A DNA stretch of 64,000 nucleotides from Diplosphaera chodatii (Eukaryota; Chlorophyta; Trebouxiophyceae; Prasiolales; Stichococcaceae), in the NCBI GenBank assembly GCA_032358165.1, contig JAALGY010000018.1:1-64000 (forward strand). The letters are read 5' to 3'. A program made the position numbers and the translations under genes. Positions 10,601 through 64,000 of this stretch are shown piece by piece. The stretch's first letter is position 1. Each line of letters starts with the position of its first letter. The notes beneath the pieces were generated by a model that saw only the letters and a list, made by a program, of their open reading frames with translations, did no database searches and had not been told where the DNA came from.

Positions 10601-10801
10601 TGCGCTGGTCTCATGGGCCCTGCATTCCCTTGTGGTTTCAGTGTCCTCCATCGACATATCTCGAACAGAAACTTTTTGGTGATCTACTCAGCCGCCCTCA
10701 CGTTCACACGTGAGACGCCGCATTGTGCCGCAGAGCCTTGTTCTTGAGCTTGGTTCTGGTCTGGACGCCCTGTGTAAAAACCAAACAAACAAACAAACAA
10801 A
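10601..10801 (+). mobile_element. (CAAA)n-tailed element copy
   Basis: Copy of the short element starting at TGCGCTGGTCTCATGGGCCC, with a very short (CAAA) tail of about five units. It differs from its neighbours at the ATCTCGAACAGAAAC segment. Confidence 0.7.
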
Positions 10802-11735: not shown

Positions 11736-12430
11736 CGCGAGTGCGTGGCATTGCTGCTGCCGCCGCCGCCAGGTCCCCCCACTTGTACGACCATTAGGTA
11801 GCCTTCCTCATCGGGACTATTGCCTCTCGCTGGTCTCATGGGCCCTGCATTCCCTTGTGGTTTCAGTGTCCTCCATCGACATATTTCGAACAGAAACGTT
11901 TTGGTGATCTACTCAGCCGCCCTCACGTTCACACGTGAGACGCCGCATTGTGCCGCAGAGCCTTGTTCTTGAGCTTGGTTCTGGTCTGGACGCCCTTTGT
12001 AAAAAACAAACAAACAAACAAACAAACAAACAAACAAACAAACAAACAAACAAACAAACAAACAAACAAACAAACAAACAAACAAACAAAAGGTTGCTTC
12101 GGCAATCTGCCTTCCATGGTTTGTGTATATAAGTCGTTGAAAAACGCAATACACAAACAGCCTTCCGGTCACAGGTCCTCTTTTCCATCACTATTTGCAC
12201 TTCCCTTACCGCTATCCATCCTTGCGCTGGTCTCATGGGCCCTGCATTCCCTTGTGGTTTCAGTGTCCTCCATCGACATATCTCGAGCAGACCGTTCTGA
12301 TGATATACTCAGCCGCCCTCACGTTCACACATGAGACGCCGCATTGTGCCGCAGCGCCTTGTTCTACAGCTTGGTTCTGGTCTGGACGCCCTTCGTAAAA
12401 GACAAACAAACAAAAACCAACAAACAAACC
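11736..12430 (+). repeat. Composite array: element head, (CAAA)n element, SINE half, second element
   Basis: Contains the element head (11,736-11,826), body (11,827-12,005), a (CAAA)n tract of about 85 bp (12,006-12,090), the SINE 3' half (12,091-12,228), and another element copy (12,229-12,430) whose (CAAA) tail is short and irregular. Confidence 0.75.
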
Positions 12431-12892
12431 TACGACGCCGGTCCGTGACGGTGCCAGGCCTCGCAGACATGCGCGACTGGCTATTATTGGTACCCAGCAA
12501 GATCAACTCTGTGTTCAGCCGGGTGTCGACAGACTGTGTCGGCCGTAGGGCGCCGTGCTCTGTTCCGAAAATCTTTACCAAAGGTTTGGACTCGGTACAC
12601 CGCTTAACCGCAAAGGTTTGGACCATACTGAAATTGCATGAAATTTAGATGATCCTTTTCAGTAGCTTTCAGGATATATTTTCAAGAAGGAAATAAACAA
12701 AACACATCAAACGTAGAAAAAGGAAGGAGGCCTACGTGTATGCACTGGCAAACCCTCATGGCCATGCAGGGGCCTCAGCGGAGGCGACATGCACGAACAA
12801 ACGGAATAAAACACAGGAACAAAAACACAGGAACAGGAACAAAATCAAAATCAAAGTCAAACCAAAACAAAAAGTAGAACCATGACCTGCTT
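12431..12892. other. Unassigned, A-rich in its second half
   Basis: Starts with about 200 bp of unremarkable sequence and passes into A-rich DNA with low-complexity phrases (AGGAACAAAAACACAGGAAC; AAAATCAAAATCAAAGTC) near 12,810-12,875. No gene seen. Confidence 0.4.
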
Positions 12893-42760: not shown

Positions 42761-45387
42761 ATGCAGCAGCAGACCGTGACGCTGCGCGCGCCCGTGGCGG
42801 TGGTGGTGGCAACATGCCTGGTCGCCCTCGGCGCATTCTTGGTATTGTCACCAGATCGATCGCATGTTGGCATCGCGCCTGCATTCTCAGGATAGCCTGC
42901 ACTTGGGATTGGTGATCTGCATGATGGGCGCACCTGTCCAGCGGCAAGACCAATCGCATATGCCTCTCATGAATCTTACATCCTTGTGCTCAGGTGCTGA
43001 AAAAGGCAAAAGCGTTCATTGATTCATCAGGCAAGTGCATTGTGAGGTTGCCGTGCGCAGGTGGTGTTCTGGCAGGGCGACAGCCGCACGAGCCTTAGAT
43101 CACTGACGCTCATGACGCCACCGTCTTCAAAGCGGGTTCGTGCAGCTGCGTCGCCATGAGCCCAGGCCATATGCTTGTACTATTGTACTATTGCATGACA
43201 CAGTGGAGTCCGATGGTAGCACAAGAGCCATACATGTCACATCTCTTCTGCAAGCTGGATGAGTGGAGAGGTGCCACATCCGTACAGTGCTGCTCGCAGT
43301 TGGCGCTGACGTAGTCCTCATTGCATGCTATCGCAGGGCGGCAGCGGCTGCAGAGGCAGCAAAGACAGCAGTAGCTGGGATGGGCCCCCGCGGATCATGA
43401 TTGGTGACGACGCTCCGGGCTCAAATCCGCTGTGGGATTACTTCTTGAGCGTCGAGAACGGCCCAGTCGTTGACAAGTGGCACCCTTACTTCGATGTCTA
43501 CCATCGGTAAGCTTCCTCCGAGAGCTGCAACACTGCGCAGACAGCACGCCTCTGGCCGTACCCTTGAGCAAGGTTGCCCAGCTAAAACGTCAGCCTTCTG
43601 AAGTACTCTGCAACGGATGGAGTGCGTGGCATGGGCGAGATGCAAGTTGACAGGAGTGGCGTTCTGGATGCAGATATTTCCACCGCTTTTGCGGCCGAAA
43701 GTTGAAGATGCTGGAGATCGGTGTGCAGGTAGGACCTGCATGAGTTCAGCGTGATGCAACAACAGTCGAGAATCCTGCAGGTCACTCAGCCGCTTTGACG
43801 CCCCTTATGCCGTCTGGCTGTCTGACACGTGCTGAAAGTCCCGCTGCAGTCCGGTGGCTCCATCCGGATGTGGCAGCACTATTTTGGCGTCAATGACCTG
43901 ACACACATCGGCGTTGACATCGACGTGTATGCACAGTGAGCCTCTTCTGCCCTTGTGCTTGGACGCTGCAGCTCAGCAGCTACTCGGATTTGGGGTGTCC
44001 GCCATGCAAGGCTGCAGCCGGTCGCGCTGCTCCCGCATTGATGGTCGTTTTGCCAAGCGCAGGGCGCTGTTCTCAGACCCGCCGCGCGTGACCATCCTGC
44101 TGGGCGATCAGGCAGACGCGGACTTTTGGGCCACCGTCGCCAAGGAGCACCCCGATGGGTTCGACATCATTCTGGATGACGGCGGTACGCAGACCCCTCT
44201 GCCATGAGACAACTACTGGATCCTGTCAGATGTACGGTGCCACAGCCTCCGGGAGAGCACCGGCGGCTATGCCAGACCCACCAGCTCGAAGGAAGTGTGG
44301 CTCTGTCTGCACAGCAAGGCCTGAGACCGCTTGCTGGCCTGCGCCTTGCAGGCCACAGAATGGAGCAGCAGATCAACACGTTCGATTCCACATGGAACAT
44401 GCTGAAGCCAGGAGGCGTGTACATCTGTGAGGTGAGCCGGGGCACTCGTGCAGTCTTACCAACTCAAAGAGCACGACTCTGCACTCCCTGTGTGTGCAGT
44501 CCTGTGGACACTACCCAGGTAGTTGCATGCAAGCGCTGCATTGGCGCGCTGGGCACCTGCCCGTCATCTAGTTTCTGGTCTCGTACAAATGGTCAGCTCA
44601 TCCATGCGATGTAGGATACGGCAACTTCGATGGACTTTGTGGGCCTCAAGAGCAACATCCACAAAAACCCTTTCGGAGGTATTGCTCCGAGCCAGGCTGT
44701 CGCATGTTTTACTTGCTGGGACTGGGTCCGCACAATGGAGTCCTGATGTGGCATGGCGTGCATACTTGTCGCAAATCCAACGCATCATATGCTGACATGC
44801 TGATGCAGGTGGTTATGGCAAGAATGGCACCTGGCATGAGTATGCCAAGGGTCTGACCGACTATGTCCAGGGTACGTGTCAAGCACCGGCTGTTGGCTCG
44901 ATCACCTGTTGCTCTCGTTGACACCAGGTTTCTTGCACTCAGCAGCTGTTGGGTGGCCACCCCTGCAGGGCACTACGTAGCCAAGGAGCTGCACCCAGAC
45001 TTTGATCCGGCCGGGTGGAGCAAGTCCGTGATGTCAGTCGCATTCTATGATCAGATGGTTGTCCTGGTGAGATGCGCCAGCTCCCTCTACACGTTTTGCT
45101 GCATTGCACCGCCACTCTTAGTCGCCGGCAGCCTGAGCAAGCCACCTGGCGACAGTCACTGCGCGCTGCCATGGGCGCTCATGCCCATCTTGGACAGTGG
45201 CCATCAACGTCCCGTGCCATAGGCCACCCTCGTGAGATGTGTTGCTGTGCAGGAGAAGGGGGTCCATCACCAGGCTAAGTCTTCCCGCCATGGCACCTTC
45301 AGGATCCCGTACGGCTCAAGGAAGTTGGACCCAAAGAAGCTGGAGACATTCCAGCAGCAGCTGGATGACTCTCTGAAGACACAATAG
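42761..45387 (+). CDS. SAM-dependent methyltransferase (TylF/CmcI-like) with N-terminal membrane anchor
   Basis: The ATG at 42,761 gives MQQQTVTLRAPVAVVVATCL and a continuing hydrophobic stretch, a good type II anchor. The catalytic exons are 43,337-43,506; 43,674-43,728; 43,850-43,935; 44,063-44,184; 44,352-44,431; 44,615-44,678; 44,809-44,871; 44,969-45,066; 45,253-45,387; one or more exons between the anchor and 43,337 are unresolved. Seen: KWHPYFDVYHRYFHRFCGRK, SAM motif LEIGVQSGGSIRMW, GVDIDVYAQ, LLGDQADADFW, FDIILDDGGH (paired Asp for metal), LKPGGVYICEDTATS. The arrangement matches metal-dependent O-methyltransferases acting on sugars, such as the macrolide-sugar enzymes (family knowledge). 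With an anchor and glycosyltransferase neighbours, glycan O-methylation is a reasonable inference. Confidence 0.82.
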
Positions 45388-45638
45388 TTGCAAGGGGCTG
45401 CTGAGCATTTAGTTGTAGCGCTGTATGTCATGCCAGCTGGGTTGGCAGAGGTCTCTGTACCGTGCATCGTGATGTCACCAGTTGTTCACAGGTCTCTTGC
45501 CGCTGGGTTGGCAGCAGCTGTTGCCATATTCCTAGTATACGTACAGTTGCTGACGAAGTGACAGAGGCAGACCGATATAACTTAGAACAAGTGCCAAAGG
45601 CTGGCTCTATGGACCAGGCTTGACGTAGTGCCAACTCA
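45388..45638. other. Short convergent intergenic region
   Basis: About 250 bp between the stop codons of the methyltransferase (+) and the GT2-like gene (-); must contain both 3' untranslated regions. No recognisable terminator motif. Confidence 0.5.
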
Positions 45639-48207
45639 TCATTGTCTCTGTTGCGGCTTGGCCTTTGCTGCTTGCTGTTGGGACTCGGCCTTTGCTTGCC
45701 TCTGCTGCGCCTTAGCCTCTGCTGCTGCAGCGGCATTCTCTGTAGGAATCTGCCACTTGGTGCGGTCGCCACCCATCGGGATTGTCCCTCCCTTCCAGTG
45801 CCACACAAATGTGCCCATGTGCATGCACACCTTGGCCGGCTTGCCCCGGCTGGGGTGCTGGCTCCTGGTGTACAAATCCTGCATGACGATGGCTCCACGC
45901 TGAGAATGCAAAATTACTAAGCTGGTATTCAGCACTGGTTCCTGTTTCAGATGCTGCATTGCCTGTGCTGGATCACGTGCTCACTGATTCCTGCTTGAAC
46001 AGCCGGTTTGAGGGGTCAAACAGGTGGTCTGCGTCATATGCCCAGTGCTGTATAGCTCGCCGCACGCCAAAGAAAAACCCTGCAAAGGTTTGCAACTTGA
46101 CACGGTGGTGCTTAAACTCGGCAATGTGAAATGGTGCACTTCTTTGCATCGTTTGGCAGTCGGGTGTGAAGTCCACCTGAGAAGCCTGGCTTCTTTTCGT
46201 GGATCTCCTTCTCCTCCATCACAGCCGATGCTCCCACACACCCTGCCGTCGTCAAGGCATCCTGGGCATGAACACAAGGTGTTTCACTGTTACGCACCCT
46301 CGCATGCATGTCAGCAGGCTGTGCATCCATTACTAGGTGCAGTGAGGTATGCGAATGAAACGTGCAACACAGCCTGCGAGCAATGCACCTGCACACGGCG
46401 GTAGTTGAGCGGCCTGTTGACGAATGTGTCGCCGGCCTTGGTGAGGTTGAGCAGCGCCTCGAAGCCCTCAACATCGCCCCAGTAGCCCTTGCCCTTGACC
46501 GTGGACTGCGGTGTGATCAGGTCACAGTCGCCACCTGCAGGCATGTACGTATTTGAGTCTGGGTGAAAGGTGTCAAATGCCGGCATATCATGGAAAAGGG
46601 TGTTTGCAGCTAGGTCGAGTACAAAGGAGTGTCTACAGCTGGGGCAACACGACAGGAGATGTTCGACGGCATAACAAAGGCCACGCCAAATGACCCACCC
46701 TCTGCTGTCATGGCGTGCGCAAGCGCATCTATGACGCCGTCCGGCACCAGGACATCGTTGTTGACAAAGAAGAGCCACTCGTGCTCCGTCTTCAGCCACA
46801 GCCTGTATGCCTGCAGGTTGCCACGCGGCTGTCATGAAGCTGTGGCATGTGCAAACTCAGATCGCATCTTGTCAGCCACACCCAGCAGACTGTCCACAGA
46901 TTGACTTGCGTGTGAAGCATGCCAAACGACAGCGGCAATGCCCCACCAGATTCCAGTTGTACGTCACTCCCAGCCGTTCTGGCGGTGCCGTCATCCAGAT
47001 GCCATACTCCCGCAGCAGCTTTTGCGTGGAGTCGGTGCTCAGCTCGTCCACAAACTGCATTGCACCGGGCTGCTGTAGAGCCAAGCACCAACCCGGTTGC
47101 TGACTTCAGGGTCAAGAGGACAGGTCATGGCACATTCTGCCCAGCGCACACTCAAAAGTGGGCCGCCCGCCATGGCTGCATGGCCAGCACACTCACCAGC
47201 AACTCAGTGGCGTCTCTGTTGGCGGTGAGCGACTGCAGCATCAGCTCCGTCTTCGGCCAGACGTTGGCCGTGGCGACGGCGAGCAGTGAGCTCGCCGTCG
47301 TCTTGCCCTGCTGCTGCGTGCTGCTGCCGCCGCCGGGCCCGCCCTGGTCATGCGCACCGCTGCCTGTACTATCGTCCGCCTGCAGTAGACCACCATCACA
47401 TGTACGAACAAGCACTGAAGCGGTGGACCAACTGTCGAGGTTGCTGCGGGCTGCCTGAGATGGCTATGAGGGGCGGAGTCCATGACATGCACAGGGCAGC
47501 AGGCACCAGGGGCAACGCACCTGCAGCGACCGCCGGGTGCCATTCACGGCAGCCTTCTGCTGCGCTGCGGCGCGCCTAGTGAGGGCGAGGCGCTGCTTCC
47601 GCAGCTTGATATCTGCTGCCGCCATCGCCTCTATCCTTTCTCGCACCTGCACGCGATCATGCGACGTTTGTACTGTGTATCACAGGCGCTGGGTCTTGTG
47701 GCATGCAGGCCTCTGGCACTGCATTGCCGCAGGGATACACAGTACCAACTTGCGCTGCCCCTGATGCACAATGCACACAGCTGAATTGCCTGCATGTGAA
47801 ACCCACATTGGCTGCGCAGGCTGGCCAGCCCACGTCCAGGGACGGGGATGTCGTGGCTGCATCATCTGTGGCGTCCCCTACATCCTCCGAGGGGGCTGCC
47901 ACCGCAGGCGTATTCTGCGGCAGGCTGGCGGACGATGCAGCAGAGGCCCGTCTGGGCCGTAGGGAGCCGCTTGCCTGCACTCAGACCCAAGACCGTCATC
48001 GGCTGTCTGATCCTGTTGAACACAAAGCAGGGCCTCGTGCTGCGCTGCCAATTTTGCAGGACCAACCTGCGAAAGATTGACGATTGCGAGCCTGGGCGGG
48101 TCCAGCGACAGCCGCAGCAGCAGCCCCGCCGCGAATGCGAGGCACAGCAGCATGGACCACATGACGACGGGCGGCAGCAGTGGCCCACGGTCGCCACTCG
48201 GCCGCAT
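45639..48207 (-). CDS. GT2-like (GT-A fold) glycosyltransferase, copy a
   Basis: Start chosen at 48,207 because it gives a basic head followed by a hydrophobic anchor (MWSMLLCLAFAAGLLLRLSL), as in its paralogue. Next come a low-complexity stem, a coiled segment (RERIEAMAAADIKLRKQRLA), then the catalytic part: LLAVATANVWPKTELMLQSL, FVDELSTDSTQKLLREYGIW, RLGVTYNWN, YRLWLKTEHEWLFFVNNDVL with the NND as DxD-like motif, VPDGVIDALAHAM, GGDCDLITPQSTVKGKGYWG, LNLTKAGDTFVNRPLNYRRV, GCVGASAVMEEKEIHEKKPG, FFFGVRRAIQHWAYD. After the domain there is VCMHMGTFVWHWKGGTIP and a Gln/Ala/Lys-rich tail to the stop at 45,639. A Golgi inverting transferase is expected; donor and acceptor are unknown. Confidence 0.8.
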
Positions 48208-49193
48208 CCTTTCGCTGGTCACTTGGCAAATATGCACTTGGCAGGCATGCACTTGGCTGCTGTGCACTGCCAGATCTCATCCATGAGTCATGACCGGCGC
48301 CCTGCACACGGTTCGGACACCGTCTTCAGAGTTGCATGAGTGTGCAGGCACACTCTTGCAGATGTATATAGCGCGCGACTGACATGCGACCATGCGGGTG
48401 GCCGCCCAGTTGCACATGCTGGAGCGTTGCAAGTGCATTCAACAACGTTTGCAGTTGCTTGAGTGTACCTGACCGCCACTACTGTTGGTAAGAACTGTAC
48501 ATGGGCGGCCCGCTGCCTGCAGTTCTGTTCAAAAGCAGATGGTGGCCCTGTCACAGATCAACGTCCATTACCGTCTGCAGCTGTCGACCAGATCAAGCCT
48601 GTATCAACACCAAAGCAAGTGTTGCGTCACGCCTGTCACAGTGGTTGAAGGTGCAGACCGTTGCCTCTACTCATCAACCAACAAGCTTGTCCGATCTCCA
48701 CGGCCTCAATCGCACGTCTGGTGGACCTGATCGTCAAACGGTGAAGCTGCAGATGATCTGCTATCTGCCATCCGATCAGAGCGTCACACCCGTCCGAACA
48801 ACGGCTTGAGAGTGTGTACCTGGGACTACAGTGTACACAGGGTTGCATAGTACCAAACCCTGAATCGTGACATGTTCATACCGTGTCGTACAGGCCGAAT
48901 GCCTCCCGCCGATGTCCCGCCGTTACACATTTGTGCGACAGTTCAGCGCTCACTGAAAGGCGCCCAGAGTGCCGCGTTGCCCAACGCTACTGCTGGATCC
49001 TCAGAAAGCTGACTTGTGACCTCATTGCTTTGTAGCAGTGCTTTTCGCCGCGACAGCTGCTGAGCGTTTCCCCCGCAACGGCAGCCAGTGGCATGCCGCA
49101 GGTCCTGCTTGGTGGCAAATTGCGTCGCACCAGCTCCCTCAGAAGCCACGTAGTCCTGATCACTCTCGCAGTAGATGGACGGCGGTCTCAGTG
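48208..49193. promoter_or_regulatory. Divergent promoter region between GT2-like a and O-FucT-like a genes
   Basis: About 985 bp between two start codons pointing outward, so the two glycosylation genes may be co-regulated. No TATA box or repeated operator is clear. A repeated CTTGGCAxxxATGCACTTGG phrase near 48,220-48,255 is upstream of the minus-strand gene. Confidence 0.5.
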
Positions 49194-52100
49194 ATGGTTC
49201 ACAAGGCAGCGACCATGCATCAGCATTACCTGCCTGGTGCCTGTCAGCGGTGGAGCTCGCCGGTGCAGCTGACCGTGGTGCTCGGAATGCTGGCCATCAT
49301 TGGCTCCATGCTGGCAGCTCTTGCGTCGCGTGGGCGGCCCCAGCTCAACTGGAGCACAACAGTGTCGCTGCCCACGGGTAATGAATGCGCAACAGCTCGG
49401 TCCAATAGACACAGAGAAGACTGTAGACTCTTATGCGGGATGGCAGCGAGCACACTACACGTTGTACTCGCTGAGGGTGCCGCGCTGCAAGCTGCATGTT
49501 GTGCATGTCACGTCGCTGTAGCACTGCCAAACCTGCGCCATTCTCAGCACGCGTCTGATGCTTCACAGGCTCGCACAGGCATACTGCAGTATGCGGCGGG
49601 GGGAGGTGCCACCCACAGCTGCTGCAAGATCCAGTCACAGCCCCGGGGCACTACCTTCAGGTAGCAGGCGGCCTGCTGGCAGCGGTGGCTGGTGATGTCG
49701 CCGCCGCCGGCGGCGCCGACGCAGCAGAGCCCGAGCTCCACATCTGCTATGCGGCAGAAGGAGGTGAGGCTGCAGTATGCAAGGGGCAAGAGGAGACAAA
49801 CAAGCCTCCCTGTCCTGTCCGATTGGATGAGCGCACTGTGCATGTGCACAGCTGACTGCAGGTTGCCATTGACATTGCCAGTTCACTGGGTGCCAGGCCT
49901 CATCAACCAGCACAGCTGCCACTGGACTGCACTCGCGATGGCAGTGGCGTTGGGTGCCAAGCGGCTGGTACTCATGTCATGCTGCAACCCTGCTGCTTGA
50001 GCCACAAAATGATGACCAGCGTGCCAGTGCTCCTGATGCAAGCCTGTAGTAGACAGATCACTATAAGGCTTCCCCCTTGCGCATCTGCAGATCATGCCGC
50101 CAGCAAGGCAACGAGCCAACTGGGCAGCTCAGGTGAGCCACGTGGCCTTGCTTTCAGCACCTGTGGCATTGCTGGAGTGAGCCAAGTGTGGGCAGTGTTA
50201 TGGTTTGCAGCAGTGATGATGCTCGTCCATGGCTGACGCCCTTAACCTTGCTTGCGCCCCACAGCAAAACACTACCTGGGAGCATGACCCGCTGGATGGC
50301 ACCTGGGACATTGCACTTTTGCGGCGCTATGCTGCCAGTGAGCTCCTTGCTGCTTGCATGCGGATTCAATACCGGCCTTTGTGATCAGGCTGGCAGCATT
50401 CCTTCCTGTCTGGTCAACTCCCCCTTCGAGGAATCTTCTACCCGCTTGGTACCATGTCAGTCGGTTGTGTTGCAGGGAGACAATTTCAGGTAGAAGTGAC
50501 GCCGGCAACGTTGCCGATCAACCGGAATCCGCGGGGCACACATAAACCCTGCACACGTGACAGCTTCGAGTCACTCGGCTTCCAGGAGTCCGAGGTGTGA
50601 GTGTGCTGCCGTGCTCACTGAGCACTGGATGCACCACTGGTGAAGTCGAGCTCAGGTGCCGTGACATCATGTGACTCATAAGATATTTGCGTGTCATTCA
50701 GGTGGTATACATCCCACCCATCTCCAGGAAGTTGCGATCGCCGTCATACTTTGTACGGGTCGTGCAGCAAAGCGTCCAGAAACACTTGGTGCGCTTGGTG
50801 GGCTATGCAACTTAGGATGATCGCCTGCTTGAAGCTGTTGACCCTCAAACTCAATGGTTGGTCGTCAGATGAGCTGCTGTCCATGGGCAGCCCATGGGCA
50901 GCCGCTACAACACTGTTGACATCAGGATCGACTCGGCTTCCCATGTCCATTGCTTCCTCAGGAAAATCTCGCTGCAAACGGCACCCAGCAAGCGCCGAAT
51001 GCACCGAAGGATGCAAAAACAGCGGCAAAAGCCAAGCCAAAGCCGAAGGCGAGAGCAAAGGCACGTGCCAACGGGGGTCCAGAGCCGAAGGCCATCACGC
51101 GGCGGCTGGCGGCAGCCGGCAAAGCCTCAGCGGCTGACAAACCGCCAGTGCCCAAGAAGCTGCTGCTGGCGATGCCAACGACCCTGCTGGCCCTGCACAG
51201 CATCGGGGAGCCTGTGATGACAGAGGTGAGGGCCGCAAGAGGGAGGCACACGCCGTTGAGCATGCCGTTGAGCACTTGCTGTGCATCAGATCCGTTGCTC
51301 ACTTGCACGCAGGCAGCCATGAACCTGCAGTTTGCCCCTTATCTGCGGCTCATCGCGGACCGTGTGATCGGTACATGGCATCATTGCTTGCATGGCTCAA
51401 CAGATGCTGCATCCTGCAAGTACACTGTTACCGCCCCTGCACTCGGGTTGCATTTGCTGGTGCTGCAATGTGGATCTGTGATGTACGCCACCAAACATTT
51501 TGCAGAGGACTTTCTGGAGCAGCACTCTGCAACACGCTTCAATGGCATGCATCTGCGCATCGAGGCTGATGCCATCCAAGTGTAAGTGACCCAGCTGCAG
51601 GCAACCATGCAGTGCAACCGGTGTTGTGGGCTTGCTCTGATGCGTGTGCTCACCTGGTCAAATGCTCCATGTCACAGAGGTTTCACGCACGATGCAGGGG
51701 TTGGGTGCAGCACCATGGTGGCCTCAAAGCACTATGGAAAGCCTATTCGGAGGCCCTGGCGAGGACAACAGGGAGCGCCGATATCCCCTTGGTGCACATT
51801 TCCTGCCCTGTAGCACCGCTTTGCTCGCAGCATAGCTGAGCCACTCTCAGGGGATGCCATGCTCGCGTGAAGGACAGCACAACCGTGTAGAGGCCTTTGG
51901 ACCTTGCTGCAGTTCGTGGCGTCGGGCATCTTTGCCGACAACGACTCGTCTGTCGTGCGAGAGAGCCTGGCAGGCGACATTGGACCGGTGGTGGAGAAGA
52001 CACCCTACCTCAGTGCGTGTGCTGTGCAAAAGTGCCATGCGTGCTCTGGGTGCTCGCATCAGCACCCATTGTCGCCTCCTTCTGTGCGCTGACGCCTGCC

Positions 52101-52690
52101 ATTTTCGGTGGAACAGCTGAGGAGGAGCTGAGGTGGTTGCGCCCCGAACAGCTGGGAGCAGTTGACTTTCTGATCCTGGCCCAGTCCCAGGTATGTGCGA
52201 GTGACGTTCGCCAGTGACGTCGGAGCGCAGGCCCTCACATATAGCCTAGCTGCATAAGCACACTGACGGCAGCTGCTATCTCCCCTGCAGACTTTCGTGG
52301 CCTTTGACCACAGCACGTTCTCGGCAAGTCGGCCAGCTCCACCTGAATGAACCCTAAATGAACGTGTTCCGCACATCATGTTTGCTGTACCAGTGCCGGG
52401 TCTGATCCAAACAACGCCTGCTGCATTCAGGTGTTTGTGCCAGAATTCCAGAAACTTAATAGGATACCTGCCGAGCCTCCGCAGTGCGTATTTGGCCATG
52501 CCTTATGTGCAGAGGCCAACACGACGGTGAGACGTTGGCAGTTTGAGTGTCCGGGAAACTTCGTTGACATGCACACACACTCTATGCTGTCAAATCAATG
52601 ACTCAACCAAGCAACAGCCCTTGCATCCTCCTGCAGGAGGACATGATCAGCGCAGGGTTCATGTTTGATAATTATCCGAGGCAGACATGA
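49194..52690 (+). CDS. O-fucosyltransferase-like protein, copy a
   Basis: Start at 49,194 gives MVHKAATMHQHYLPGACQRW and an anchor (VQLTVVLGMLAIIGSMLAAL). Following exons read GHYLQVAGGLLAAVAGDVAA, VPGLINQHSCHWTALAMAVA (the G-x-x-NQ region that starts the GDP-fucose transferase fold), TTWEHDPLDGTWDIALLRRY, VVYIPPISRKLRSPSYFVRV, a Lys/Ala/Pro-rich insert (50,961-51,100), AAMNLQFAPYLRLIADRVI, FNGMHLRIEADAIQV (the HxRxE-type donor-binding motif), FVASGIFADNDSS, VVEKTPYLS, LRWLRPEQLGAVDFLILAQS, TFVAFDHSTFS, VFVPEFQKLNR and a C-terminal DMISAGFMFDNYPRQT ending at 52,690. Order and motifs fit the plant/algal O-FucT family (GT65/68/106-like). The first intron's phase is not settled. A paralogue lies on the minus strand at 61,036. 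Confidence 0.78.
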
Positions 52691-53534
52691 TGCACAGGGC
52701 AGGCGGCTGGCTGCACATCTCAGTATGGCGGTTGCTGTGCTGCCCAAGCGGCAGCAAGCCATTGAAGTATGTGTATGTGTATGTGCACGCTCGTCTGCGC
52801 GGTCGGTGGCAGCCGATAGATGCATGTGTGCAGCAGCTTGCGGAACAGCCAATCTGTGCTCCATGCACTGGCTGTCGTGATTCGAGACCTCGTTTAGTGT
52901 CTTGGGTTTTATGAACAGGGGGGTCTGAAAGCTGCTGTTTCAACAGGCTGGGCGGTGAGGACTCATTTGTCCTTGGCAAGCAGTATGCACACTACACTGT
53001 CTGCATCATCAGAGTTGCGTGATTCGAGCATCCTGAAGTTGGTGCATACACATCTTCAGTCCGAGCATTGCGTGCTGCTGCCCTGGACTCTACATCATGA
53101 GCAGCGGTGCTGCGGTGGGTGCCCAAAGGGAGCTCGTGATGCGGTATTGGAACATGTTTGATCGGACCGGAAGGTTTCCCCCATTCCCATCTGGTGCATG
53201 CATTCTTCGATGCATTGTGCGGACACGCACTGCGAGTTCTGTATTGTTGCACGTCAGGCAAGCTAGCTGTTGTATACTGAAAGGCATCCGGGCGCGCTCG
53301 GCGTGCGCTGGCGGCAATGCGGTGAACTGCCGATCGGCTCAACAGCTACTGACATTTGAGAGGTGATTGCGATCAGTTGAGCCGCGGAGTTCAGTGTTGC
53401 AGCAGCTCCGACCTTGGATGTACCCGCGTTCGCATCCTGAAAGTGGCTGCTGACTGGCGTTTGCGGCTGCGGCCAGACCCTTGCTGAGAGCTGTACAGTG
53501 GGGGCGCCCTGGGCTGTCCGCCGCTGGCACAGCC
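52691..53534. other. Intergenic between O-FucT-like a and GT92 b
   Basis: About 840 bp between two plus-strand genes. No frame with recognisable content; no repeats of the subtelomeric families. Confidence 0.5.
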
Positions 53535-55871
53535 ATGCCAGGCGGTAGGGCCGGTGGAATTAGTGTGGGAGGCCGTACCGTGATGGTCGTCAGCTTCGCA
53601 GCAGCCACAATCCTCGCACTGATCAGCGTTAGTCGCATTGACACTGGATGGTGCGCTGCGCCACATGCACCATGCCGGCTTGGACTGTGCATCGCACCAC
53701 CCAAGCAGATGCTTCCAGTACGATGAATCCATCGGTATCGTGGATGGTGCATGCTGTGTGGCCGTATTATTGGCTCATCGTGCACGCAGGGCCAGGCATT
53801 CGGACTGGGTGCCCAGTCGCAGTGTACAGCAAGAAGATCACAGCCTCGGCAGCATGTCAAAACTCCCCAGAACCGCAAGGTCACTGAAAGTGGACACCAC
53901 AGCCAGCGGCAGATGCGGCTCTCAGTACTTTGCCTTATGCTTAGCAGTGAAGAACAACCATATGTACATCAGGGAGTGGATCGCACATCATCATGCAGTA
54001 GGCGCAGGTATGGGTGTGCTTCTGCTGCTGGGCATGCCACTGCTGCTGGAGCTGCATGTGCCTCTGACCTGGCTTGACGGGCAGCTGCAATGCAAGCAGG
54101 CAAGATGTATATATACGACACAGGCAGCTTCGTTCCTCTGAATGATACAGTGCAGGTGCGGAACAAACTCCGCACAGTGTCATGGTGCTGTTGGTGGTGC
54201 CCTGTTCGGGTTATCTCAGCATGTGCATAGCAGGTGGGAGCTGTGCACCTTTGGTGCACTGCAGGATCACATTGATTCGGGGCTTGTGGAATACATCTAT
54301 TGGCAGCCCGACTTTGGCAACGGCACCGTTAGGTAAGCGTATGTTTCCAGGCCCAGCTGGATGGCTTGTAGCCGCTGGCTGCATGCTGCCCAACGTAGTA
54401 GACTCATAGGATATGGACCATCTACTGCAAAACTCACGGCACATGTGCCGCGCTGCAGGAGGTTCCCTCAGCAGGATATCTACAGAAACTGCCTGAAGCA
54501 CTACCGGGAGCGGCATCAGTTCATTGGCTTCATTGACGCTGATGAGGTGCTCCCTCCATCGCGCAGGCATCCTCACACGAGACATTAGTGCTGCTTTGCC
54601 GTGACATCACATGGCACGCATCGTGCAGGCATTGCATGCAATGGCTATCCACACAATGTACCTGAGCGTGCTCATTCCACGGTGCAGTTTCTCATCCCCA
54701 AGTGGGGCAATGACAGCGTGGCGGGTTACTTGAGGCACATGCAGGTGGGCACCTGCGTATTGTCCACATCGAGTGCACACTTTTCGTACGCTTCACCTGC
54801 GCATGTCTGCATGCTCCATCGTGCTGTTTTACACCTATCTGCTTTGTTTGGTGGCTTCCAGGCATTCGGTCCGATTGGTGGTCTGGTCGTGAACTGGTGG
54901 GTCAGCATGTGCACGTGCCAGATCTGCGCTGTGTGCTCAGCAGATGGACACTTGTTCACGATTGCATATTCGATGTACCGTGCATTGGTCAAAAGCAAAC
55001 TCTCGTTTCCACACTCCAGGGTCATCTTTGGGCCGTCAGGACACAAGACACGACCCAACCAGGGAGTCTTGCAGGTGTGCGGCAACAGATGGCTGCTGTA
55101 ATACGCACCCACAACATTGCAGCATGTGTTTGAAATCTTGGCTGTGAGCGCAGACATGTGTGATCAAAATGTTGACCATACCTTGTGCCTTGCAGTCGTA
55201 CACACAGTGCTGGAACCGCACCAACATGCATGCGATCCACATAAAGAGCATCGTCAACACCGATCTGGTGGCAGATGCTGGCAGGTGCGGACTCATACTA
55301 CAGCTTGCAAGGGCCCATTCTCAGCAGGTTCAGCTCCTCAGCACCATTCGCATGGTTTCTGACCAGGTTTGTGCCGGCTTCTGCCTTTGCAGCACGCCTC
55401 ACGAGTTCAGCTACGAAAACGGCACGTATCCTGTCAATGAGCACCACTATCGCTGTGGCGGCCCAAGGTGTCTCGCGTCAACTACAGACAACATCGCTCT
55501 GCACCACTATGTGACAAAAAGCGAGGAGGTGAGGCGCTGCCGCTGCTGCTGCTGCTGTTGCGCAACCTCTCAGGCTGGGCTGCAGCTGCTGTGATAGTGT
55601 TGCACAGCTTTTCAGCTGAAGCAAGTTGCTGCTGCAGGATTACCGGGCGAAAATGGCTCTGGGCAGGTAATCATTTGATGTTGATGACCCCAGCCCCTGA
55701 CTTGAGCCAGCAGGCATGTTGGCTGCGTGTTCACTGTTGCTGTTAGCAAGGTCTGGCTTCTCTCCGTGCAGTGCGATGGGCAATCACAAGAACTTCACGT
55801 TCTTCACGATGATCAACGAAGGGGCGACAGAAGAGTGCACAGACGGCCTGCGATGGGGACCCTATACATGA
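53535..55871 (+). CDS. GT92 (DUF23)-type glycosyltransferase, copy b
   Basis: Start at 53,535: MPGGRAGGISVGGRTVMVVS and a hydrophobic anchor (SFAAATILALISV). Exons in order read YFALCLAVKNNHMYIREWIA, HHHAVGAGKMYIYDTGSFVP, DHIDSGLVEYIYWQPDFGNG, YRNCLKHYRERHQFIGFIDA followed by DE (DxD motif), FLIPKWGNDSVAGYLRHMQ, AFGPIGGLVVNWW, VIFGPSGHKTRPNQGVLQ, SYTQCWNRTNMHAIHIKSIV, TPHEFSYENGTYPVNEHHYR, NIALHHYVTKSEE, LKQVAAAGLPGENGSGQ and a last exon AMGNHKNFTFFTMINEGATE to the stop at 55,871. Motif order is that of GT92 and of copy a at 26,476, with similar intron placement around the HHHAVG and DxDE motifs. Secreted/Golgi lumen location is inferred from the anchor. Substrate unknown. Confidence 0.87.
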
Positions 55872-56717
55872 TGTGCAGTGGTGATTGGGAGTCGGTAGGG
55901 TCAGGCTGACCACCTGATGAAGTATCCAAGTGACCCGGGGAGTGGTGCCAGTTGGCGCTCCTGCTGCTTGTCGCTCTCCACATTTGGACCGCAGGTGCCA
56001 CACGTCAGTAACCGTGACGGCGTGATGCGATGAACTGTGCATCTGTGGTGGCCACTGCAGGGGCTGCTTGCTCAGGATGGCATCTTGTTGATGTCTGCTG
56101 TGGTTTACGTTTGTTCGAAGCTTAGGAGGTGATGACGGTGAATGCGTGTGTTATGTATGTTCAGAGCCTGATGTCTCAAATGCTGTTGTACCAGGGTTCG
56201 TGCGGTACATCATCTAATCAACCGTCAGGGCGCTCTGCTCGGGCCACGAAAGCTAAGCACATGCGTCCCAGCAATGATTCAACGTCACTTCCAGCGTCAC
56301 TTCCATAGCTACCATATCTCATCTAGCGGAAGGGAGCTGCCCACAGCATCAGGCCTGCCACATCTTGGGCCCTGCTCCCCTCATTGCTGGCCACTGGCCT
56401 CAGGCGACGCAGAATGGCGCCGGTTCTCAAAAGCAGATACAGAGCGCTCAATAGCTGCATGCCGCAGTAGAGGAAGACCAGAGCCTGCTCACGTCAAAAC
56501 AGCGGAGACCTGGCGGCGGGACTGCCCACATGGCTGCAGTGGGACCCGCGGGGTGGTGCCGCATCATGTCTCGACCTGCTCCACATCCGCTGATGCTTGG
56601 GCAGTTTTGGGCGCCAGGTGCCATGCCGCACGCCCCCCGGCGTCTGCATACTCGCAGATGTGCATCGGTTAGCAGCGAGAAGGCCACCAGCATGTGCGTG
56701 TGCAGCCGAGAGTGATA
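55872..56717. other. Convergent intergenic region
   Basis: About 845 bp between the 3' ends of GT92 b (+) and GT2-like b (-). A duplicated CAACGTCACTTCCAGCGTCACTTCC phrase (only the 10-bp CGTCACTTCC unit repeats) is near 56,281. No gene recognised. Confidence 0.45.
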
Positions 56718-59700
56718 TCACAAAGTCAGCAGCAAGCAGCACGGAATGGCAGCGGCTGGGGCGCACGGCACCAAAACTGCGGGTACAATAGCCACACCTG
56801 TCGGCAGGGTGGAGCCCTTAAAGTGGTACACGAAGACGCCGGTGTGCATGCACAGCTTTGCACGGTGGCTGAGTGTGGGGTCCGTGCTGCGATCCAGCAG
56901 GTCCTGGATCACACGGAAGATGACGTCAGCAGGCGAGACCCTCAGCAGGCGGGAGCGCTCGTTTGAGGGGAGTGGTCACGATGTCATTAGGTGGTGAATA
57001 CAGATATAGACAGGCAAATGGCCGAATCAAGCAGCATCCACGGAAGGCAACTACAGCAAAGCTCACCTGCTCCTGCCCGAAATTCCGATAGAACTCTGTC
57101 GTGTTGAACAGGTTGTGTTTGTCATACGCCCACTCCTGAATGCTGCGACGGACGCCGAAAAAGAAACCTGCACCGCAGCACGGCATGTGCTGTCCGACTC
57201 CACATAGCGATCATTCGATCGTTCTGGCGAGCACGGCAGAGCGTTGCACTGTTGCCACAGCCCAGCCCTGCTATCGGTCCTGCAGGGTCAGCATTACGCC
57301 ACCTGAGAAGCCTGGACGGTCTTCATGCAGCCAGCTCTCCTCCTTGACCGCCAGCTTCCCCACACACCCGCCCTGCTGCAGAGCCTCCTGCGGCACCAAC
57401 AAGCGCAGGCTGGGGAGCAGGCAGTGGGGGATGCCGCCCAGGGGGGAGCGTCAGCGGGATAGGATGTGCACACTGACAGGTGTAACAAAGTAGCGATATG
57501 ATGCACAGCTGGGACTTCAGCAGTGTTAGTTATGAGGCTGCGCTTGTTGTATCTGAACAGCTGCTGCACCATGCACCCCATTTCTCCCCTGGAGGTGTGC
57601 CTCTCCACCTGCACACGGCGAAAGTTGAGCGGGCTGTTGACAAAGGCGCTGCCGGCGTCGCTGAGGTTTAGCATCAGCTCCAGGCCTTCCACTGGGCCCC
57701 AGTAGCCCTTGCCCTTCACAGTGGACTGCGGCGTGACCAGGTCGCAGTCGCCTCCTGGACAGTCGGACACACGCGCAGTTTCCAGAGCCCGATCTTGGAC
57801 ACCGACAGTATCTCTCCGTGATGCAGGACCCTGAAGCAGCAGCCAGCACATGACACAATAGGCTCCTGACGAATGCACTGCCCAGGCCTGCGTCACAGCT
57901 TGGTGATGGCCTCCATGCACACCAAGCACACCGGACTGTGCCACGATACACGCATCTCGCTCACGTTTTGGCGACATGGCCTGCGAAAGGGCATCAATCG
58001 CGCCGTCCGGCACCAGCACATCGTTGTTCACGTAGAACAGGTACTCGTGGTCCGACTGCAGCCACAGCCTGTAGGCCTGCGCGCCAGATGTGCACCACTT
58101 CAAACGTTTGTGTGACCAACGGGAATCAGCAGCAGAGTGGCGGTGCATGGTAGGTGCTGGGCACATGTGCTGTGCCAGGTACGCATCCTGCTGTGTTGCA
58201 AATTTCAGATTTCGGCGGCGCGTTCTGGAGGCCACCGTGATCCAGGTCGGCGTGCAAATTGACTGGGGCTGTCAAGGGTGAGCTTGGCTGAGGGTGCGGG
58301 TGGCGGCAGGGTCATGAGCAGCTCACGATGTTCCAGTTGTAGGTGACGCCCATGCGCTCCGGCGGGGTCACAAGGCGGACGCCATACTGGTGCAGCCGCT
58401 GCGGCGTCTCGTCGTCGCTCAGCTCGTCGATCACCTGCAGGCACCCGATAGTATATGGCTGATAGGCAGCATTCTGATGGGTTGTCTGCATTTGAAGATC
58501 GAAGCCTCTGACCGCTACCCGATCAAGATGTGAAGCCCCTGCCAGGCTGCCCTCCGGCGAGGGCACGCGACACAGCATGCCCAACTCTGGAGGCAGTATG
58601 GTCGTGCTGCTTCAGGGGAGGTGCACGGGAGCACAACGGTAGCAGCAGCAGCGCCCACCAGCACTTCGAAGGCGTCGCGGTTGGCCGTCAGCGACTGCAG
58701 CAGCAGCTCCGTCTTGGTCCAGACGTTGGCCGTCACCACCGCTATGAGAGCAGAGGGCCCTGACCTGCGTCGCTGCCGCCGCTTCTCGACGTGCTCCTGC
58801 CACGTGTCCATAGTCGCGATGCCCTGCGCAATGGCGGCAGCATTTGATTGATTGGACACGCTTCTATATCGGAATCCTGGTGAAACTAGGCCCGGGGAGC
58901 TGAACATCCTGCCTTCCACGTCTCAACAATGCCACATCGCGGTCGGGAAGCGCAGAAAGCAACAGAAATGCAGCCTCGACTCTCTGGAAGGAACACGGTG
59001 CAACAGCGCATGCAGCCTCACAGGTGGCTCTGGAGCAATTTTTGGTCGCCGCTTTGGCCGCTTTGCCTGCGCCTTTGCACTTTTGCGCCCCTTCTTACTG
59101 CCCTTGGCAGCGCTGCCAGCCTTGCGGCTGCTGCCACCATCAGCAGCGGCCGCGGGCTGACCGCCAGCTGCCTCCACCTTGCTGTCGCCTTTGGTACTGC
59201 CGCCGCTGCTGTCGCTGTTGCTGAGTAGCTGTGCGGCTCTGCTGCCGCCGCTGCCATCTGCTGCCCCGCTGCTGCGCTCCTTCCACCCTCCGCCGCTGTC
59301 CTGCCCGTCTGCTTCTGTCTGCACACAGTGCAATCGTCCGGTGTGGGCTCATGCCCGAATGCACTGTGCACACGCCTTCGCAGGCGACCACCCTCTGCTG
59401 TTCTACATGCCTGGCTGAGTGCACTGCCAGTGCAGCCTCCTGCAATGCAGCAATGTTGAACCCAAGAAGCTGCAGCTGTTACCTGCAGAAGGTGCCGCCG
59501 CCGTCGCTGCTCCTCGCCAGCGCGCCAGCCTGTGAGCGCCTCGTCAAGCCTGGCCATGTCCTCTATCCGGGCCCGCGCCTGCCAGCAGCGCTGGAGCCTC
59601 AGTCTACTTGCGGCACTTCCAAGAGCAGCTCAATGAGCCATCTGGAGGCAAGGGACGAAAGAAGCCGCTGCGCAATGGACGCGTCCTCTCACCCCTTGGA

Positions 59701-60047
59701 TGCAGTCTGGCCATCCGACCGCCGAGGCGCCGTCGATCTGCAGCATGTCACACGCCAGCAGGCTTAGACTTGTCCTGCTGCGGGCATGTCGTACAATAGT
59801 GGCCATGCAGACGGATGTGATCATGACTGATGTCACAGCTGTGGCAGTTGGCATCCTGGAGCCCACACAGAAGCTGGCGCTGACTCACATGCAGGGGGCT
59901 GCGCAGTATGACCCGCTGGGAGCCCTGCGACCAGTGCACCGTCAGCGCCAGGCCGACGGCCAGGGACAGGACCAGGATCCAGCGCAGCGCCACGGGCGTC
60001 GCTCTGTAGGCCGCACCGGGCGACAGGCCTTTGGCTTCGCATCGCAT
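56718..60047 (-). CDS. GT2-like (GT-A fold) glycosyltransferase, copy b
   Basis: Start at 60,047 gives MRCEAKGLSPGAAYRATPVA and an anchor (LRWILVLSLAVGLALTV). A stem exon (RARIEDMARLDEALTGWRAG) and a very basic Gly/Ala/Lys-rich linker (59,320-59,020; SKKGRKSAKAQAKRPKRRPK) precede the catalytic domain: VVTANVWTKTELLLQSLTAN, VIDELSDDETPQRLHQYGVR, ERMGVTYNWN, YRLWLQSDHEYLFYVNNDVL, VPDGAIDALSQAM, GGDCDLVTPQSTVKGKGYWG, SAFVNSPLNFRRVQ, GGCVGKLAVKEESWLHEDRP, FFFGVRRSIQEWAYD, then SPADVIFRVIQDLLDRSTDP and the end VFVYHFKGSTLP. It is clearly paralogous to copy a at 45,639 with conserved exon edges, but its linker is unrelated and it lacks copy a's Gln/Ala/Lys tail. Expected Golgi transferase; specificity unknown. 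Confidence 0.82.
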
Positions 60048-61035
60048 GTCACCGCCGCGTGCGGCCCCCAGCGTGGCCAACCCCGCTGGCCGTTCGGCCG
60101 CCCCCCGCCAGCGGGCACAGTATGAAAGGGTTGTTGTGCTGAATACCTGCGTGTGCAATGCAGCAAGCGCCTGGGCAGGGTGTCTGCAACGACCCAGGCA
60201 AACATGCAGCATGCATGTGGGAGTAGCAGCCATTTGCATGGCTTCCGGTGCCCACCCTTGCCCAGGCGATCCCTGATCAGGATCGGCAGCGAAAGAAGGT
60301 GTCCACGCCCCACCCGTCCGCCCTGCTGCGACGGTCTGTCTTGCACGATCTGGGTGCTACTGATGGCTGTCCGCTGGCATCGTGTGCAGCCAGCAAACAC
60401 GATGATGTTCGCCGTGTGCGTGTCCAGTGGATCGACCTATCGCAAGCTACAACGACCACAGAGCTGCGTCCGGCCGTATGGCAAGACCGGCGGGCTGCAG
60501 CCGTTGCACTGCAGCATTGTATTGTCGGTTGGCTCCCAGTGATTCAGAGATCCGACCCCTTTTCGCGAGGGTCTAAACCCCAGTATCTAATGCCGCCACC
60601 ACTACCCAGCACTGGGCCTCAGGCTGAAACGTATAGTATGACTTAGTCGACCAGAGGATGAAGGCAGATGACTTATACATCGCATGACTGCTAGTGTCAT
60701 GCTACCAAGCTGCGTAGCTGCCCCACCAGCCAGAGGCAATAATGCAAATTAACTGGCGGATCTGTTGCTTCGCCTTGCCATGGTAGGCACTTCGCTGTCC
60801 AACAGAATCATGCAAAGCAGCTGCAATTGCAAGGCACCACGCCCATGCTGAGTCTTCCCAAAGCTCCTGTTCTGTGTTCTGACGAAGCCCGCGAAGCACC
60901 ATAGTGGCTATGAAACAATAGTTCAAACGATAGACACTACGCCGCCTTGATACGGTATGGTGGAGATAGCATCCCATGCTGACGCTGAATACAGCCATCG
61001 TAATCCGCCACGTGCTTATCGCAGGCTGCGGCAGC
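60048..61035. other. Intergenic between GT2-like b and O-FucT-like b
   Basis: About 990 bp between two minus-strand genes; expected to hold the GT2-like promoter and the 3' untranslated region of the O-FucT-like gene. No gene recognised. Confidence 0.5.
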
Positions 61036-64000
61036 TCACGTGTCTCCACGCTCGAACGCGTCGAAGATGACCCCCTTGAACAGGTAAGGCCCCTGCACAT
61101 GGAGCAGGATAACATACCCTGCCGTTTGTGAGGGCCCATTTCGAACTGTTCACCTTGGCACTTCTGCTTGCAGAGACCACCGTCAAAGGGTGCACTGTCG
61201 CAGCCAGCAGCACAGCGCTGTGTTGGTTCAAGCTGGGAGCTGAAGTTTGGTTGGCTCACGATCGGGATGAGCTGCGAGCAGGGTAAGTCGCCGAACACGC
61301 AGATTGCCTCCTTGACGGGGAGGTGGTGCAGCTTCCGGAACTGGTGCAGGAAGATGGAGAAGGACGACCGGTTGAAGAGCACCAGGCGCTGCAAACGGCA
61401 CACACCGCCCAAGTCAGTTGGGACATCGTCGGCACATATTAGGCACAGACCACAGGGTCACCAAGCAGGGTGCCCAGTGGCTGTGGTCGCAAGCAGATGG
61501 TCGGCTTCCATGACTGGTAGGTGCGCTGACCACGCTAGCAGAGCTGCACATGGTGCATACATGCGCATGCACTTGCACCATGGCAACTAATCCCTCCACG
61601 GCGTGAGGATATCACAGGCGACTGAGCGCACGACAGGTGCGACCTGGTTTACTCTCAACAAGCGCCAGTGGCAGCAGTCTCACTCCGGCCGGCGTGCTCA
61701 TTCAGACGCTCACCTTGGCCCGTGCAAGCACTAGGAAGTCGATCACTGCCAGCTGCCCCAGACTGAGCGCCCTTCGCTCCTTCTTCCCTGCAATGCCAGC
61801 AATTGTGCGAGCATGGATGTGAAATGTGGATGACTGCGGCCGAGGAGGCCGGCTGGCACCCGCCACATGCATGTCTGAAGATGCAGCGATGCACGGGCGT
61901 GAACGTGCATGTCTGCCATGCAAATGCATGTCTGCCATAAGCAGCAGGGGTCGTGCAGTGCGAGGCCTGGACCTCGGCTGGCGTCTGTCCGGCTGCAATA
62001 CCGTGTGCGCCAGGGAGATCAGACTGGTTGCTGTGGGTGCAGCCCTGGACCGACTCACGTAGGAAGGGCGTCTTCTCTACGATGTTGGATGCCGCGTCAT
62101 GGCCGAGGCGCCCCAACCGCTGCCGCTGGTCTGTTGCGTCCGCATCGTTGAAGATGCCTGATGCCACATACTGCAAGCAGGGCAACGCACGGTCGTGAGG
62201 TGAGCTAGTCTTCGAGGCACACTGCTGGGCTGGTGCCCTCCCTAGATATATTCCTCAGGTCTGCTACGGTTGATGAAGGTTGCTTGATGCCATGTGAAGT
62301 GCTATGACAGCACAAGGGCATCCTTTGCCTGTGCACGTACCAGTGGCACCGATGCGTTGAACCCGGCGCGCACAGTGGCATTCGCATATGCCTCCCAGAC
62401 CATGTCAGCGCCACCTCGCTCCTTGAACCAGCCCCTGCAGCACAGGAGCGTTTGAGATGCACTCTGTCCAGGAGTGCAAGCTCGCAGAGGCGCCCGTGCA
62501 TGCCACTTGACAAGGGCTTCAACACCTCTCGTCCCCCAGCAATTGGGTTGATGGGTGCAGCAAGCCTGGTGACTGGGTCACGGACTGCTGCTGAAGGCCA
62601 AACAAAACAGATCAGGGCCCACTCACACTTTCTGCGCGTCCACTTCAACGCGCAGATGCATGCCGTTGAAGTGGGACACTCTGTGCTTCTGAAGAATGTT
62701 GGCTGCAGGCGCATAACAAGGGTCGTTATCGCGGTGGACATGATGGTGCGATGCTCAGGGTTCAAGGCGGTGGACCCTCATCTGACCATCCATGCACGAC
62801 GTCTGCGGGCCACCAACAGGCGCACAGCCACCGCACTGTGTTGTTTGCACGTCTGCGGCGGATTCTTTGCTCACCTGCCACACGCGCAGCTGTTGTCCGG
62901 AGCATGGGCGAAAAGTGCAAGTTCATGGCCACCTGCAAGTCATGGCACACGAAATCGTCCGCGGTGGCACATCACCTCGTTGTTGATGATGCACCTGCAT
63001 GAATATCACCATTATTATGCTTTGCATTGGCGACATCATCATCAGCGTGTGTCCGAAGCAGTGGGGCAGGCCGTGCTATTGCCCTGGTGCATATTTGATG
63101 TGCTGCTGCACAATGCATGCTGATGTGGCGGACAGCAACCGTGCAAGTCTAACGCCAAGCACACCGAGGACACAGGCGGCTTTCAGGTGCAGCCAGCGCC
63201 AGCGACGTCTGAAGCCTGCTTCAACGCGTGGTGAAGTCTGGGCTGGTAAGGCGAGCACCTCCCTCCAGCTGACGCAGCCCCAGCAACAGCGCTTCATGAC
63301 GCTGGTCTGTCAGACCATCAATGGTGCCGCAGCAGGGTTTTGGAACACCCACCTCTGTCATGAGGGGCTCCCCCCGGCTTTTCAGGGCCATCAGGTTGGA
63401 CGCCAGGCTGAGCAGCAGCTGGCGCGGCGGCGGCGTGTTCTTCGGCGCGGGCTTGCCCGCCTTTTTGGCCGCCCGCTGCCGTCGCTTGTCCTGCTTGGCG
63501 ACCCGCACCTGCATGCAGGGGACCTGGCAACTTGAAGTCCCCCTTGCATCACAGGAGCCCTGTGAGCTCCCTCGTAAGGACCTCCCACAGACCTGCCGAC
63601 CCTAAGGAGCCTGGCATGAGGCTGTGATTCAGTCGTGTCAGTCTGCTCAGGGGCCAAGCGGCTGCAGGTGCTGCTGCAGTCTTCCAGAGCGGGGCAATGG
63701 CAGCCAAGGGTTTAGGTCTGGACACCGCACCGCATGGTATTCGATTTGCTCCCGGACCAGCTCGCCCCAGCTGGGCAGGCTCAGGAACCTGTACTGGACG
63801 TGCGGCATGCTGACCACCTGCGCACTGGCACTACAGTCAGTCTACCGCTGTCACTGCAGGCTGTGTCAGTAGCCAGTGCAACAAGATCAGTAGCCGGTGC
63901 ACTGGGTTGCAACAGGGAGTTCGCAGAGCAGCTGGCATGCTTGCCTCGGAGCGGGTGAAGCCCTGGGGGTTGTAACCGCTGCCGAAGCACTGCTGCGTCG
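61036..64000 (-). CDS. O-fucosyltransferase-like protein, copy b (5' end beyond the window)
   Basis: Partial gene running off the right edge. Read from high to low coordinate: TQQCFGSGYNPQGFTRSE (matching FESLGFQESE in copy a), VVSMPHVQYRFLSLPSWGEL, a Lys/Pro-rich insert (QDKRRQRAAKKAGKPAPKN, about 63,490-63,430), LLLSLASNLMALKSRGEPLM, AMNLHFSPMLRTTAARV, an exon with FNGMHLRVEVDAQKV (about 62,665-62,620), YVASGIFNDADATDQRQRLG, SNIVEKTPFL, ALSLGQLAVIDFLVLARAKV, LVLFNRSSFSIFLHQFRKLH, and the end GVIFDAFERGDT at the stop 61,036. Each block has a counterpart in copy a in the same order, so they are paralogues. The exon ending at about 63,954 is followed by a GC-type donor. The anchor and G-x-x-NQ region should lie beyond 64,000. 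Confidence 0.75.

Follow-up and report, generated by a model that had tools for sequence, protein, structure and literature searches.

The window, the whole stretch of 64,000 nucleotides analysed here (C16:1-64000 of the 85.57 Mb genome of Diplosphaera chodatii, 55 contigs), harbours six consecutive glycan genes that were assembled by hand splicing and run from position 42761 to past the window end in the order methyltransferase, GT2a, O-FucT-a, GT92, GT2b and O-FucT-b. The start of O-FucT-b is found at contig position 65060, 1.06 kb beyond the window end, and two more glycan genes follow there, a GT49 (LARGE-like) gene and then another GT92. The first-pass annotation had described six such genes in a row over 21 kb; all of them were recovered as contiguous, and the cluster turns out to be larger, with eight glycan genes in an unbroken row over 29 kb, six in or overlapping the window and two beyond it. 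The features are as follows.

26476-28753, plus strand: further GT92, of the same subfamily as the GT92 at contig 69818-71998
42761-45387, plus strand: methyltransferase, Methyltransf_24 (PF13578); 10 exons, 317 aa, N-terminal hydrophobic anchor
48207-45639, minus strand: GT2-like glycosyltransferase a (PF00535); 9 exons, 418 aa, N-terminal anchor
49194-~52323, plus strand: O-FucT-a (PF10250); 14 exons modelled, model without stop codon, N-terminal anchor
53535-~55844, plus strand: GT92 (PF01697); 12 exons modelled, model without stop codon, N-terminal anchor
60047-56564, minus strand: GT2-like glycosyltransferase b (PF00535); N-terminal anchor
65060-~61287, minus strand: O-FucT-b (PF10250); N-terminal anchor, model without C-terminal end
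~C16:68924-67009, beyond the window: GT49-like (PF13896); partial model
C16:69818-71998, beyond the window: second GT92 (PF01697); above the Pfam gathering score

Neighbouring models among the six genes are separated by 0.25-1.24 kb, and the window genes hold 9-14 exons each in the hand models, which were spliced from peptide cores with the help of a splice matrix. A self-trained gene finder was dropped because it called exons nearly everywhere. For genes 3-8, whose models lie outside the training of the splice matrix, 50 of 57 introns scored above the 90th percentile of random GT/AG pairs, a comparison that is flattered by each intron having been chosen as the best among several candidates. 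Across the six genes, the highest hydropathy over 19 residues in the N-terminal 60 residues ranged from 1.89 to 2.37, in line with the single hydrophobic anchor originally described for every protein whose N-terminus could be read; O-FucT-b features a second, slightly stronger window (2.13) at 115, in a poorly resolved region.

No nucleotide-sugar synthesis genes were recognised in the cluster. In the open reading frame after the GT92 ending at 71998, the 196 residues tested resemble a right-handed beta helix, slightly under the Pfam cut-off. Upstream of the methyltransferase lie parts of a cyclophilin-like gene (by eye), an aldo-keto reductase, V-type ATPase subunit A and a protein kinase. 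The further GT92 at 26.5-28.8 kb sits among these non-glycan genes, which also separate it from the main cluster, and is 48-89% identical per matched stretch to the GT92 at 69818-71998. The contig end itself (window 1-12600) is packed on both strands with highly similar repeats, many at 90-100% at the protein level, and one open reading frame therein, judged by eye, resembles a reverse transcriptase in its zinc-knuckle tail; the repeats probably constitute a LINE array.

Enzyme families and the putative sugar O-methyltransferase

Pfam searches placed all six genes above the gathering scores of the families to which they had been assigned from motifs, O-FucT-a only after revision of its model. 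GT2a and GT2b reached 32.1 and 32.0 bits against PF00535 (gathering score 23.3; the latter for the hand-revised model only), the GT92 of the window 50.1 bits against PF01697 (gathering score 23; hand-revised model only) and O-FucT-b 34.6 bits against PF10250 (gathering score 31.5). The first model of O-FucT-a stayed below this score with 29.0 bits and rose to 40.6 bits after a hand revision in which exon ends were changed and a last exon was added. Beyond the window, the GT49-like gene scored 44.4 bits against PF13896 (cut-off 27, partial model) and the second GT92 48.3 bits against PF01697 (cut-off 23). As the exon-by-exon search with PF13578 missed the methyltransferase, its spliced protein was used as query and gave 35.8 bits at a gathering score of 26.3.

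The two GT2-like proteins are paralogues with 61% amino acid identity over 265 aligned positions, and O-FucT-a and O-FucT-b are paralogues as well, so the cluster arose in part by local duplication. Groups of several GT92 matches at C28:138-158 kb and C30:1556-1571 kb are apparently tandem arrays. In the GT2 type of the window, NND replaces the DxD motif in all seven genomic copies and in 8 of 8 aligned homologues, with only the last Asp matching. The protein search with GT2a, restricted to the 7994 candidates sharing most words with the query, returned one match, and nine when residues 112-375 only were used. The structure model of one GT2 homologue, P0120, has a mean pLDDT of 68.8 and matches mannosyl-, rhamnosyl-, fucosyl- and GalNAc-transferases, among others, so that a single donor is not assignable to this type. 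For the O-FucT genes, fucose would be only one candidate donor sugar, since PF10250 includes plant enzymes with donors other than GDP-fucose.

For the methyltransferase, the only PDB sequences found at E ≤ 1 were MycE (3ssm, 2e-13) and SpnK (8ia9, 2.3e-11), with the similarity to MycE beginning at chain residue 200 and the first ~200 residues remaining without match. Equivalents of MycE D275, H278, E303 and D304 (alignment; chain numbers minus 20) are present in the window protein and invariant in 30 aligned homologues out of 118 found, Glu303 being a residue that we take to be part of the MycE-type conserved set. According to the excerpted text of PMC9275233, the conserved site of ThnM1 consists of Tyr208, Asp275, His278 and Asp304, and in MycE Asp275 and Asp304 hold the Mg. 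Tyr208 falls into an alignment gap in the window methyltransferase, which is therefore classed only as a relative of MycE and not as its orthologue.

A homologue with 55% identity, P0001, was folded as a stand-in for the spliced window protein and gave a model with a pLDDT of 85.1, consisting of an N-terminal helix (10-26) and a SAM domain. Its top 13 PDB fold matches are all MycE or SpnK chains, with E values of 1.7e-17 to 7.3e-14 and TM-scores of 0.46-0.55, followed after a gap by the next match at 2.3e-7; the more remote matches include enzymes acting on other substrates. Because of these MycE/SpnK matches in sequence and predicted fold, together with the retained site residues, metal-dependent O-methylation of a sugar hydroxyl is the best-supported chemistry for this enzyme, and its initial labelling as a sugar-type O-methyltransferase is supported. 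The methyltransferase might instead be unrelated to the neighbouring glycosyltransferases and methylate a small molecule, a lipid or a carboxyl group in the secretory lumen. Such a role would fit the breadth of the PF13578 family, the distant matches with other substrates and the nearest homologues, which bear no functional name. We nevertheless consider it unlikely, given that the top structural matches are sugar O-methyltransferases, that the metal ligands and the catalytic His are retained, and that six of 11 copies of the family lie near glycosyltransferases of four families, as described below.

Recurrence and re-pairing of mixed glycan neighbourhoods

The interest in the locus started from the premise that eukaryotic glycosyltransferase genes are usually dispersed, which does not hold in this genome for the families tested. 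Protein searches, Pfam searches (GT92, O-FucT, GT2, GT49) and two tblastn finds, merged by eye, yielded 89 loci of five families that were picked because they are present in the window cluster. These loci form seven mixed components within 10 kb, compared to a mean of 0.74 and a maximum of 5 in 2000 random placements, a model that takes neither gene density nor contig ends into account. The later inclusion of GT47 raised the number of loci to 106 and that of mixed components to 12 (random mean 1.06, maximum 6 in 5000), and without the component of the window itself six (five families) and 11 (with GT47) are left. The locus lists include weak exon matches, with E values of 0.1 to 1 among GT92 and O-FucT, and the components on C37 and at C10:1142 kb rest on weak GT49 matches (E 0.007 and 0.019). 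As a control, none of the 89 glycan loci lies within 10 kb of 71 mitochondrial carrier loci among the matches listed (1.48 expected), and one lies within 25 kb of the same carrier loci (3.69 expected), figures that speak to glycan-carrier adjacency only and not to the clustering of other pathways.

By protein search, the GT2 type of the window occurs at seven loci and the methyltransferase family at 11, of which the partial one on C47 matches only ~residues 4-110; a PF13578 locus on C38 was excluded from this count because the window protein did not find it. Six of the 11 methyltransferase loci have a GT2, GT92, O-FucT or GT47 gene at most 10 kb away, and around the other five (C13, C22, C26, C27, C47) the tested glycosyltransferase families are absent over that distance. 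At C45:290-303 kb a methyltransferase, a GT92, a GT2 and a GT92 follow each other consecutively, C9 and C31 each carry a divergent methyltransferase-GT2 pair, C17 carries GT2-GT92, and C3 and C10 each carry methyltransferase-GT47. The C3 methyltransferase (match 466818-467912 in L047, C3:463001-473000) is a single open frame of 397 aa. Its C10 partner is 80% identical and, like the other copies, matches exon by exon; the C3 copy may be the product of either intron loss or retrocopying.

That mixed glycan neighbourhoods recur within one genome is what is new here. Our main reading, to which we assign a probability of roughly 0.55, is that the eight anchored enzymes of the secretory pathway act jointly on one O-methylated secreted or surface glycan. 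The GT2, GT92, O-FucT and GT49 enzymes would add sugars in turn to this glycan in the Golgi, while the methyltransferase would cap one of its sugars by O-methylation dependent on S-adenosylmethionine and metal. Clustering may be maintained, or repeatedly formed, because the enzymes work on the same glycan or share regulation, and the window cluster would then be one of several modular sets whose members are copied and re-paired.

Alternatively, the clustering could be a by-product of genome history, in which tandem and segmental duplication, along with dynamic regions that retain rapidly evolving surface-glycan genes, bring together enzymes that share no pathway and each act on a glycan of their own. 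The paralogy of the GT2 and O-FucT pairs argues in this direction, as does the identity of up to 89% per exon between the GT92 genes at 26.5 and 69.8 kb. Compared with random positions, the methyltransferase loci are, moreover, shifted towards contig ends (mean relative distance 0.245, p 0.001 for 11 loci; 0.236, p 0.007 for seven points after averaging segment pairs), and many of the neighbourhoods lie in duplicated segments. The homologous segment pairs C9/C31, C13/C22, C26/C27, C17/C45 and part of C16/C45 show 74-78% identity in alignable DNA, and C3/C10 align over just 1.0 kb with 86% identity; C7/C18 and C10/C37 were taken as pairs from their positions only. The number of independent cases behind the 12 components is therefore smaller, and we estimate about eight if pairs are counted once.

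Duplication alone would not readily account for the varying composition of these blocks. Tandem duplication unites like genes and does not assemble five unrelated families, the excess of mixed components is large (12 versus 1.06), and the pairings of methyltransferase and GT2 vary between blocks, as seen in outgroup-rooted trees built from exon matches with some read-through at exon ends and with C47 dropped. In the methyltransferase tree, C45 falls into a clade with C9/C31, C13/C22 and C26/C27 (support 100) that leaves C16 outside, its position directly beside C9/C31 having a support of only 52. In the GT2 tree, C45 groups with C16 (support 99) and C9/C31 fall outside. The methyltransferase and GT2 clades are combined in at least three ways, namely A1 (C16), B1 (C45) and B2 (C9, C31). 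These combinations call for re-pairing or for sorting out of an older array; losses from an ancestral array that contained several copies of both genes could also have produced them. One block duplication as the sole origin of all methyltransferase-GT2 neighbours was ruled out, as the rooted trees disagree. We regard a mere by-product of genome history as possible, though we would bet against it.

The reading as a local glycan pathway, already put forward in the first-pass annotation, remains plausible and is strengthened but unproven: it gains from the recurrence of mixed neighbourhoods and the re-paired methyltransferase and GT2 genes, while joint action, sugar identities and product are what we infer.

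Several light-harvesting matches, out of 30 chlorophyll a/b-binding matches in the genome, and several mitochondrial carrier matches also occur in contig pairs with near-equal scores. The chlorophyll a/b-binding matches mark the host as a photosynthetic eukaryote and, taken with the intron-rich genes, fit a green alga. The paired contigs suggest an old duplication, either of the whole genome or of large segments, or a hybrid genome.

Algal, bacterial and viral counterparts

Among the 8 to 15 best-ranked papers listed per search of the open-access literature, none was recognisable by its title or the start of its abstract as describing this cluster, most subscription journals being outside that scope. 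The kind of cluster is already known; here it comes as a variant that is mixed, recurring, rich in introns and equipped with a MycE-related enzyme. The closest algal counterpart is chromosome 19 of Ostreococcus tauri, which, according to PMC5082852, groups glycosyltransferases, including GT92, with methyltransferases and also with sugar-modification genes. Its genes differ in expression in virus-resistant lines, and the authors speculate that the clustered genes belong to the same pathway. There, the genes sit on one small outlier chromosome, some are putatively foreign and their expression is linked to viruses (PMC5082852), whereas the sets described here are intron-rich, spread over several contigs, and include a MycE-related methyltransferase, GT2, O-FucT and GT49. 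With MycE and SpnK (ThnM1-type) the window methyltransferase shares the Class I SAM domain and the Asp/His/Glu/Asp active-site residues; it differs from both in its N-terminal anchor, secretory topology, introns and eukaryotic host, and from MycE in lacking counterparts to Tyr208 and to the first ~200 chain residues.

Besides N-glycans, some wall glycans of algae also bear methylated sugars. O-methylated mannose is established on algal N-glycans (PMC6344472, PMC7773692, both in excerpt). The excerpt of PMC6344472 (2019) leaves the identification of the responsible O-methyltransferase to future work, that of the review PMC7773692 (2020) still describes it as pending, and a 2025 overview (PMC12507850) does not use the word methyltransferase in its main text. 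For the N-glycans of Chlorella and Chlamydomonas a luminal sugar O-methyltransferase would be expected, a description that the window enzyme may fit; its family is a candidate only, and the excerpts of PMC6344472 and PMC7773692 name no gene. With its 11 loci (one partial), six of them beside glycosyltransferases, this family supplies named candidates and likely partners for the methylation of algal sugar chains.

Surface-glycan clusters of bacteria and phages also combine GT92-like and GT2-like genes near a methyltransferase, as on the phage-like contig L130, where apparent sugar-activation genes were recognised by eye; unlike the window cluster, they are intronless and co-directional and include nucleotide-sugar synthesis genes. 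A rival reading is an acquisition of the cluster as a unit from a bacterium or giant virus. Relatives of the methyltransferase are widespread in viral contigs, being encoded in 555 of the 600 pattern matches listed, and GT92-like and GT2-like genes adjoin on L130 together with the apparent sugar-activation genes. The window genes, however, have 9-14 modelled exons and N-terminal anchors, and their viral relatives are remote, with 25-31% identity for GT2 (three loci) and 31-46% for the best 80 methyltransferases. None of 83 examined viral loci carries both a methyltransferase and a GT2 of the window type, and no relatives of GT2a, GT92 or O-FucT-b were found at E ≤ 1e-4 in the 80 viral loci with a methyltransferase. 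We hold such an acquisition to be very improbable.

Beyond the joint action of the eight enzymes, a wider proposal can be put forward tentatively, and we rate it as doubtful rather than probable. Modular, re-assorting Golgi glycan clusters may be eukaryotic counterparts of bacterial surface-glycan loci. In them, cassettes of glycosyltransferases and a capping O-methyltransferase related to MycE would be shuffled, partly towards chromosome ends, and so create variety in a methylated glycan of the cell surface; viruses, bacteria or a fungal partner may exert the pressure behind this. The O-methyltransferases still missing for algal glycans might then belong to this methyltransferase family. Should gene clusters indicate pathways in eukaryotes as in bacteria, gene order would allow the glycan pathways of algae outside the model species to be read. 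At 5211-6726 of L130, the GT92-like open reading frame is followed directly by the GT2-like one, which is related to the window GT2, and the pair lies in a run of genes that appear by eye to be sugar genes of the sialic-acid type.
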